A stretch of 64,000 nt of DNA from an uncultured Vicinamibacterales bacterium (lineage in GTDB: Bacteria; Acidobacteriota; Vicinamibacteria; Vicinamibacterales; UBA8438), in the NCBI GenBank assembly GCA_958295905.1, contig OY282382.1, positions 4,832,910-4,896,909 on the forward strand, given 5' to 3'. Numbering within the stretch: the first letter of the stretch is position 1; the number at the start of each line of letters is the position of its first letter. Both the position numbers and the translations under genes were made by a program. The notes beneath the pieces are model-generated. The model was not told where the DNA came from and did not search any database. It worked only from the letters and a program-made list of their open reading frames with translations. Below, piece after piece: positions 28,783 through 32,851 of the stretch.

Positions 28783-29077
28783 GCTCAACCGCCCGTGGTG
28801 AAAGTCCCCGCCGCCTTCGAGCGGCGATGCGCTTCGCGTGGCTGCATCGTGCCGCCGGGCTGCGTGCCGCCCGCGGCGGCGGCCTGACCAAGACGCGCCC
28901 CCGCCGCGCCTGGTCAGACGGAGGTCGCGCAGCCCGCCGGCTCACCCGCCGCTCCGGGAGCGGCGCGGGGTTCCACCACGAGCTGTCTACCGTATCGATG
29001 GAGTTGTATCAGAGCCCCTCCGCTGCATTATCATGAAGGCGTCGGCGGCAGTCAAGCGGCGGCGCCGGTGCCAGAAC
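28783..29077. other. Intergenic spacer before family A copy 3, no gene seen
   Basis: About 295 bases between the divergent DUF1592 and ankyrin genes. No reading frame looks genuine. Promoters for both genes should lie here or around the repeat that follows. Confidence 0.4.
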
Positions 29078-29312
29078 CATGCCACGCTCCGCCAACGCCG
29101 TGCGCAGTCGGCATCGTGGCGGGTCCCGGGGCTCCGGACGGGCGGAATCGTGGGTCTCACGCGGCGCCGGCCGGTCGGCAAGACGGTGGCGACGCGCGTG
29201 GGCGGCGGCCCAGACGACCGGGCTCACGGCATACGCGGCGCCGGCCGGTCGGCAAGACGGTGGCGACCCCCGAATCGGGGGCGGGCCGGTCACGCGCAGT
29301 CAGCGTGGGATG
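29078..29312 (+). repeat. Dispersed element family A, copy 3, with internal 74-bp duplication
   Basis: 235 bp between the terminal repeats (CATGCCACGCT at 29078 with one change, AGCGTGGGATG ending at 29312). The family length is 161, and the extra 74 bases are a tandem duplication: GCGGCGCCGGCCGGTCGGCA is at 29161 and again at 29235. The element ends 55 bases before the ankyrin gene. Confidence 0.78.
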
Positions 29313-29367
29313 CCCCTGCGCGGACGCACCCGCCCCTCCACCCGGACGGCGAGAGAGACCGAGAACC

Positions 29368-30892: not shown

Positions 30893-31318
30893 CTACGCCA
30901 GACTCGCCAGCAGCGCGTCCACGCCGGCCTGGGCCACGACCTCGTCCTGATCGGGGGTGCCGGAGCTGCAGCCGATGCCCGCGACGATCTCCTCGTTCAC
31001 GAAGACCGGCAGGCCGCCGGCCACGATCATGAAGCGGCCCTGGTTGCTGACGTGGATGCCGAACGCCGGGCCGCCCGGGCCGCTCACCTCGCCGTAGGCC
31101 CGTGTCGACCGCCGTGCCGCCGACGCGGTGAACGCCTTGCAAATGGCCACGTCTATGCTCGTGATGCGGCCGCCGTCCATGCGGTGGAACATGAGCAGGC
31201 TGCCGTTGTCGTCGGTGATCGCGATGTCCATGTCGACGCCGATCCCGCGCGCCTTGGCCTCGGCCGCGGCCATCATGATCCGTGCATCCTCGAGGGTCAG
31301 CTTCTGGGCTGTTCGCAT
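30893..31318 (-). CDS. GlcG/HbpS-family protein
   Basis: 141 residues covering the single GlcG/HbpS domain (formerly DUF336): LTLEDARIMMAAAEAKARGIGV, AITDDNGSLLMFHRMDG, CKAFTASAARRST, FGIHVSNQGRFMIVAGGLPV and EIVAGIGCSSGTPDQDEVVAQAG. Some family members bind heme or cobalamin, and others have no assigned ligand. No signal peptide is present, so it should be cytoplasmic. It is a single gene. Confidence 0.88.
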   Translation of the reverse strand: MRTAQKLTLEDARIMMAAAEAKARGIGVDMDIAITDDNGSLLMFHRMDGGRITSIDVAICKAFTASAARRSTRAYGEVSGPGGPAFGIHVSNQGRFMIVAGGLPVFVNEEIVAGIGCSSGTPDQDEVVAQAGVDALLASLA

Positions 31319-31460: not shown

Positions 31461-31495
31461 CCGGCGCGAATCCGGCGCGTCGGATCAGGCAGGAC

Positions 31496-31656
31496 CATCC
31501 CACGCTCCGCCACCGCCGTGCGCAGGCGGAATCGTCGTGGATCCTGGGGCTCCGGACGTGCGGAATCGTGGGTCTCATGCGGCACCGGCCGGTCGGCAGG
31601 ACGGTGGCGACCCCTCGAATCGGGGGCGGGCCGTCACGCGCAGTCAGCGTAGGATG
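31496..31656 (+). repeat. Dispersed element family A, copy 4
   Basis: 161 bp with terminal inverted repeats CATCCCACGCT (31496) and AGCGTAGGATG (one change, ending 31656). It lies 53 bases before the selenoprotein-candidate gene and must contain or displace its promoter. Confidence 0.78.
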
Positions 31657-31708
31657 CCCCTGCGGACCAGGACGGCGGCGCCTCGCTCCCGTGATAGGAT
31701 GCGGCGTC

Positions 31709-32851
31709 ATGAAACGAACACTGCGTCACATCGCTCTCGCGGGCGCCCTCTGCGCCCTGCCGCCCGCGGCGCCGGTCGAGGCCGCACAGGAGAGAACACC
31801 CGTGGACGTCGCATCGTTGGGACCGCAGATCGGCGAGATCGTCCCCGACTTCTCCCTGCCCGACCAGAACGGACGCGTCAGGACACGCGACTCGATACTG
31901 GGCCCCAACGGCGCGATCCTGCTGTTCCACCGGTCCGCCGACTGGTGACCGTACTGCAAAGCGCAGCTCGTGGAGCTGCAAGACCGTATCGAAGAGCTTC
32001 GGGCGAGAGGCCTCGGGGTCGCGGCCGTCAGCTACGATTCGCAGGCGGTGCTCGCCGACTTCAGCCGGCGGCGCGGCATCACCTTCCCGCTCCTCGCCGA
32101 TGACGACTCCGCCGTCATCACCGACTTCGGCATCCTGAACACGGTCGCCATCGAGGCCCAGGGCCCCCACGGCGACGACCCGGGGGTCGTGGCCGACGTG
32201 GCGAAGTACGTGTCGGTGTTCGGGGCGGGCTCGAACATCGTCGGCACGCCGTTTCCGGGCACCTTCATGCTCGACCGCGACGGACGCGTGACGGCGCGGT
32301 TCTTCGAGGAGTTCTATCGGGAGCGGAACACGGCCGCGAACGTGATGCTCCGGCTCGGCGAGGGGCTGTCGCCGATCGAGGCCGTCGAAGGCTCGACCGC
32401 GCACCTGAAGTTCACCGCGTACGCGAGCGATCCGGTCATCACCGTCGGGACCCGCTTCTCCGTCGCCCTGGAGATAGAGCCGAACCCGGGCATGCACCTC
32501 TACGCCCCCGGGGCCGAGCAGCTCGGCTACCGGGTGATGGGGCTGACGCTCGCGCCGGTGCCGCACATCAGGTTCGAGCCGGTGGCGTTCCCGGCGTCCG
32601 AGATCTACCACTTCGAGCCGCTCGACGAGCGGGTGCCCGTCTACCAGGCCCCGTTCACCCTGCTGCAGGAAGCGGTGGTGTCCGGCGCCCCGGGCACGGA
32701 AGAGGCCCTGGCCGAGGTCGACGCGGTGACGCTGTCGGGCTCGCTCGACTACCAGGCGTGCGACGACCGGCTCTGCTACGACCCGGTGTCGGTGCCGCTG
32801 ACCTTCACGTTCGACGTCGACCTGCTCGACCGGCAGCGGGCGAACCGCTGA
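31709..32851 (+). CDS. Probable selenoprotein: redoxin (UxxC) fused to a DsbD-alpha-like domain
   Basis: One frame of 380 codons with an in-frame TGA at 31946-31948 (residue 80). A signal peptide (to VEAAQ) is followed by an AhpC/TSA-type redoxin: IVPDFSLPDQNGRVRTRDSI, then LLFHRSADW-TGA-PYCKAQLVELQ. In relatives, as I remember them, this site reads DWCPYCK. The TGA thus replaces the first redox cysteine, while the second is kept. A hairpin GCAGCTC-GTG-GAGCTGC (31963-31979) lies where a bacterial SECIS is expected. After the TGA the frame continues intact through TFMLDRDGRV to a C-terminal domain (from about residue 232) with LDYQACDDRLCYDP, like the N-terminal domain of DsbD. If Sec is not inserted, the gene is broken. 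Confidence 0.82.
31963..31979 (+). promoter_or_regulatory. Candidate bacterial SECIS hairpin
   Basis: A perfect 7-bp stem GCAGCTC/GAGCTGC with a GTG loop at 31970-31972. The loop is 22-24 bases after the TGA, which is within the distance known for bacterial SECIS elements. It is part of the coding sequence (codons AQLVELQ). Confidence 0.6.

Follow-up and report, generated by a model that had tools for sequence, protein, structure and literature searches.

Prx-like selenoproteins with a thioredoxin-like UxxC motif were reported in 2005 (PMC1088965) and appear again in a 2026 inventory (PMC13188914). These thiol:disulfide oxidoreductases (PF00578) have a Prx-like domain in which UxxC replaces TxxU, have Cys homologues, and are found in marine bacteria. 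A Prx-like U/CxxC protein that is fused to PF11412 and has an extra conserved Cys has been described from the GOS ocean metagenomes (PMC9402790, Fig. 2D); there, PF11412 is labelled a DsbC domain, while Pfam now names it DsbD_N, and our structure comparison concurs. The DsbD-alpha domain of E. coli (nDsbD) and the N-terminal domain of Proteus ScsB have a pair of Cys close to their C-terminal ends, and ResA, TlpA and CcmG are exported Trx-fold proteins with a WCxxC motif.

Here, we describe a redoxin gene in a 64,000-nucleotide stretch of DNA from an uncultured Vicinamibacterales bacterium (the whole analysed stretch is called the window below). With its PF00578 domain and UxxC in place of TxxU, its product belongs to the Prx-like UxxC selenoproteins, but it differs from those described in that it would be exported and in that it carries a second, C-terminal redox domain. 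With the GOS fusion it shares both Pfam domains within one protein, the U/CxxC motif and the extra conserved Cys, and judged by the published description the two are very likely members of the same family. Its second domain resembles DsbD-alpha and ScsB in fold and in the position of the Cys pair, but is joined to a redoxin rather than to the DsbD transmembrane core, and its pair is spaced as CxxxxC. ResA, TlpA and CcmG have their WCxxC at the same place, but contain Cys rather than Sec and lack the DsbD-alpha domain. The novelty is thus modest, as the family has been published before (PMC1088965, PMC9402790, PMC13188914), although our literature search returned no primary report that places it in Acidobacteria or names a redoxin-DsbD fusion.

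Results

The redoxin gene and its in-frame TGA

The features of the locus are as follows:

31696–31708, plus strand: leader, with AGGA at 31697–31700 as a possible Shine-Dalgarno sequence
31709–32851, plus strand: complete redoxin gene, 380 codons with a single internal UGA (Sec); homologues align full-length across the TGA
31709–31786, plus strand: predicted N-terminal signal peptide, with KR in the n-region, then a hydrophobic core and, around residues 23–26, an AxA-like end
31829–32296, plus strand: Prx-like/thioredoxin-fold redoxin domain, approximately residues 41–196 (PF00578, E 7.7e-26)
31946–31948, plus strand: predicted UGA selenocysteine codon (Sec80), position 1 of UPYC
31963–31979, plus strand: predicted bSECIS stem-loop (stem of 7 bp, GUG loop, apical loop 21 nt from the UGA)
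32390–32848, plus strand: DsbD N-terminal (alpha)-like domain, residues 228–380 (PF11412)

The gene starts with ATG at 31709 and terminates with TGA at 32849–32851. Upstream of this terminator the only in-frame stop is the TGA of codon 80, and the ORFs broken there are fragments of one gene whose homologues align over the full length of the protein with up to 91% identity. The initial annotation had proposed selenocysteine at the redox site of a redoxin, in the position of the first Cys of a CPYC motif and followed by an intact frame of 300 codons. Indeed, we read a thioredoxin-like SADW-U-PYC at this codon, with the partner Cys83 encoded at 31955–31957, the 300 codons up to the terminator are open, and the PF00578 match agrees with a redoxin. 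When all six frames of the window were scanned for TGAs with coding-like flanks, four sites were found, and only at codon 80 do the flanking peptides form a recognisable split domain. A search for a sigma-70-like promoter for the redoxin gene gave none.

An intergenic repeat has two copies in the window (29072–29193 and 31490–31611, 122 nt, 89%; a further part at 29235–29320 and 31579–31664, 86 nt, 85%), the second of which lies directly upstream of the redoxin gene. The upstream region also contains an HbpS-like haem-related gene (30893–31318, minus strand), and a similar protein is encoded upstream in the homologous loci L034 and L041. No neighbouring gene names a substrate, and across the loci no gene neighbour is conserved except selA in three relatives.

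Codon 80 and the stem-loop in homologues

We scanned for homologues with one genome per species, which gave 80 loci. The closest (90–91%) are from Vicinamibacteria MAGs, the others from Gemmatimonadota and Gammaproteobacteria. As the search patterns were written for the motif with Cys as well, they were not biased towards TGA. Nevertheless, codon 80 is TGA in 80 of the 82 homologues that cover the site and TGC (Cys) in the other two (L099 and L108); two aligned rows that are not members of the family, a Prx-type paralogue with Thr (L026) and a TlpA/ResA-type paralogue with Cys (L027), are excluded from this count. Exchange between Cys and TGA, which the initial annotation had suggested looking for, is therefore the only exchange at this codon, and TAA or TAG, named there as evidence against its reading, were sought among the 82 homologues and are absent. 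The codon for Cys83 is always TGC or TGT. On the tree, at least three changes between Sec and Cys, in either direction, are needed, but well-supported branches force only one.

The source genome encodes at least three selenoproteins of the family, as two full-length paralogues, both on the minus strand, share the UGA, the UPYC motif and the hairpin: L022 (TGA 2326–2328; genome C1 at ~2.231 Mb; 45% identical) and L023 (TGA 2314–2316; genome C1 at ~0.789 Mb; 34% identical). These were not part of the initial annotation. Upstream of L023 there is a peptide-level trace similar to the repeat described above. A fourth TGA redoxin of this genome (L028:1486–2028, TGA 1612–1614), with HLF-U-LPC-R and of the AhpC-TSA/AhpC-TSA_2 family, is likely a different Prx-like selenoprotein. 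In the gammaproteobacterial loci L071 (3163, 5041) and L072 (1887, 3244), two family TGA redoxins lie ~2 kb or less apart.

The perfect 7-bp hairpin with a small loop that had been noted 15–31 bases past the TGA is found at exactly these coordinates, with arms at 31963–31969 (GCAGCTC) and 31973–31979 (GAGCTGC) that pair without exception around a GTG loop (31970–31972). Its folding energy (MFE -11.6 kcal/mol; z -1.0 against shuffles, 34 of 200 of which fold equally well) is, taken by itself, ordinary for such GC-rich sequence. As single-sequence folding is uninformative here, we turned to covariation and to constraint on codon choice, and the case for the hairpin beyond chance is a comparative one. 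Among 75 TGA homologues, there is hardly any codon variation within the hairpin (Leu CTC in 72, Val GTG in 72, Glu GAG in all 75), whereas the Leu and Glu codons immediately outside it vary freely. The pair formed by base 3 of codon 86 and base 1 of codon 90 is G-C in 38 cases, A-U in 31, G-U in 4 and A-C in none, and every change at this pair is synonymous, the exchange being compensatory. Over 40 sequences, 97.9% of the cells in the hairpin pair, compared with 94.1% in shuffles (0 of 500 as high) and 14–53% in slid controls. The hairpin agrees with all four published rules for bSECIS elements (PMC13188914). These give a loop of 3–9 nt, a stem of 4–16 bp, a G in loop position 1 or 2 and a spacing of 16–37 nt, with an energy cut-off of MFE <= -7.5; the redoxin hairpin has a loop of 3 nt, 7 bp, G first and 21 nt, and its energy also lies within the cut-off. 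It is the only match in the window at one mismatch or fewer. These data bear out the SECIS-like character proposed for the hairpin, and the comparison shows that the stem-loop is under selection.

Selenocysteine machinery

The genome from which the window derives (6.3 Mb in 3 contigs, 98% complete) contains the complete set of genes whose presence the initial annotation had put forward as a check: selA (542 bits), selB (332 bits, both parts), selD (290 bits) and selC, a tRNA-Sec with anticodon TCA. The selD product has an N-terminal oxidoreductase-like part fused to it; in the corresponding locus (L010), selD stands behind an NADH-dehydrogenase-like oxidoreductase and its MRCGGCGSK motif holds Cys, not Sec.

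We also asked how selA is distributed. Among the 26 genomes behind the loci it was detected in 22 of 24 with the TGA form and in neither of the two with the Cys form (Fisher p 0.018), and in a sample of the class in 48 of 53 TGA-form genomes versus 2 of 6 Cys-only genomes (p 0.0036); the two samples overlap (L099 and L126, for instance, look like one genome), so that the tests are not independent, and the p values ignore the relatedness of the genomes. The TGA genomes in which selA was not detected (five in the class sample, two of the 24 behind the loci) most likely reflect gaps in draft genomes, and the two Cys-only genomes that have selA count against the selenoprotein reading. The redoxin gene is followed directly by a co-oriented selA in three relatives (G092, G032 and G065). 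A cysteine-desulfurase-like gene (L120:3543–4076) is divergent from this redoxin-selA pair in G092, and, to judge from the start of the protein, it is a possible selenium supplier. One genome without selA (G078) has a TGC form of the redoxin that retains the full 7-bp hairpin (L123), which suggests that Sec gave way to Cys only recently and left a fossil SECIS behind.

Domain structure

The model of the whole protein has a pLDDT of 89, with low values across residues 1–20. Its N-terminal domain matches the structures of BcpB, AhpE and ResA, and the matches listed by Foldseek for the whole model were all to this domain. PF00578 and PF11412 are both matched in 38 of 38 aligned members, in which U80, P81, C83, Q349, C351 and C356 are invariant; the conservation program displays Sec as C, so Cys forms are pooled with Sec at U80.

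The C-terminal redox domain was absent from the initial annotation. Its invariant C351-x4-C356 pair is encoded at 32759–32761 (Cys351) and 32774–32776 (Cys356). Modelled by itself it reaches a pLDDT of 92, and while a sequence search with it against solved structures gave no match, fold comparison did: VIA-align scored ScsB at Z 11.9 and E. coli DsbD-alpha at Z 10.9, and in a comparison with the E. coli and Neisseria DsbD-alpha structures Z was 9.9–11.0, against about 8 for unrelated rows. At a Z of about 10–12, the modelled residues 228–380 have the fold of the DsbD N-terminal domain. Some of the hits are complexes in which DsbD-alpha is bound to DsbC or to the C-terminal domain of DsbD. These two are both thioredoxin-fold partners of DsbD-alpha, and such complexes would fit a relay between the two domains of the redoxin. 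The protein is not itself a DsbD, having the alpha-like domain only, with no transmembrane core and no C-terminal Trx domain; the one complete DsbD of the source genome is located elsewhere. A match to the NCBIfam SelL-related redox protein model NF040769 (48.8 bits) falls under the curated cut-off of 120 bits.

Discussion

A standard stop codon does stand in frame, and could mean that a nonsense mutation or a sequencing error has split a pseudogene at codon 80. Yet 80 homologues, found in Acidobacteriota, Gemmatimonadota and Pseudomonadota, share this TGA and conserve the protein on either side of it; this refutes the pseudogene and agrees with the earlier argument that a lone nonsense mutation is unlikely. 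We consider it just as far-fetched that the locus holds two genes, a short N-terminal product and a downstream gene from GTG 31970. The ORF listing does contain a 293-aa ORF beginning at this GTG, but this codon specifies a conserved Val that belongs to the SECIS loop and, in the redoxin fold, to a helix; a protein begun there would be without UPYC and half of the domain, and the Cys forms read continuously through the site. Nor do we give any appreciable credence to a general reassignment of UGA (e.g., to Trp) or to non-specific readthrough in place of Sec: the gene itself terminates at UGA, where the frame closes, codon 80 exchanges with Cys and not with Trp, Cys forms accompany the absence of selA, and a tRNA-Sec is present in the genome.

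Given a conserved UGA that is replaced by nothing but Cys, a stem-loop under selection and the presence of the Sec machinery, the gene is almost certainly intact and would encode a selenoprotein with Sec at UGA80. SelB and tRNA-Sec would decode this codon, directed by the stem-loop 15–31 nt 3' of it. What the selenoprotein does is a separate matter. Its nearest solved folds (BcpB, AhpE) are Prx and its Pfam family is AhpC/TSA, so it might chiefly be a peroxidase working by peroxiredoxin chemistry, with the C-terminal domain as resolving or recycling partner. This seems rather unlikely to us, as the PxxxTxxC/U motif of Prx is absent, with S76 in place of the Pro and U80 in place of the Thr; compared with L026, the Prx paralogue in the same genome, Sec80 sits at the Prx Thr and Cys83 at the peroxidatic Cys, and the motif is instead a Trx-like UxxC.

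In the preferred reading, that of a thiol:disulfide oxidoreductase, the Sec80-Cys83 centre would act rapidly in the periplasm through a selenol/selenylsulfide cycle, and may possibly reduce peroxides as well. The DsbD-alpha-like domain, through Cys351 and Cys356, would carry electrons between the membrane DsbD and this centre, making enzyme and electron shuttle one molecule. From the fold and the conserved cysteines, we give such a DsbD-fed relay roughly even chances. As a tentative picture, the protein may be a single-chain periplasmic selenoenzyme with a built-in DsbD-alpha recycling domain, from a lineage that mostly uses Sec and only exceptionally Cys, and in which some members went back to Cys once the Sec machinery was lost but still carry a fossil SECIS.

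To the published family, this locus adds a near-complete genome, of Acidobacteriota type to judge by the nearest loci, that has the machinery. It also adds covariation in the SECIS, the link to selA, a second domain identified as having the DsbD-alpha fold, and candidate Cys revertants that retain a remnant hairpin, as in L123. A standard ORF caller cuts the redoxin gene in two, and the active site is lost; as the family is common in genomes of Acidobacteriota and marine Gammaproteobacteria, and Sec-dominant, automatic annotation may often misread it. With the fusion, the route by which an exported selenoenzyme regains its electrons becomes open to a simple test. Sec-to-Cys reversion has been called rare in bacteria (PMC13188914), and candidate cases are provided by the genomes that lack selA and carry a Cys form.
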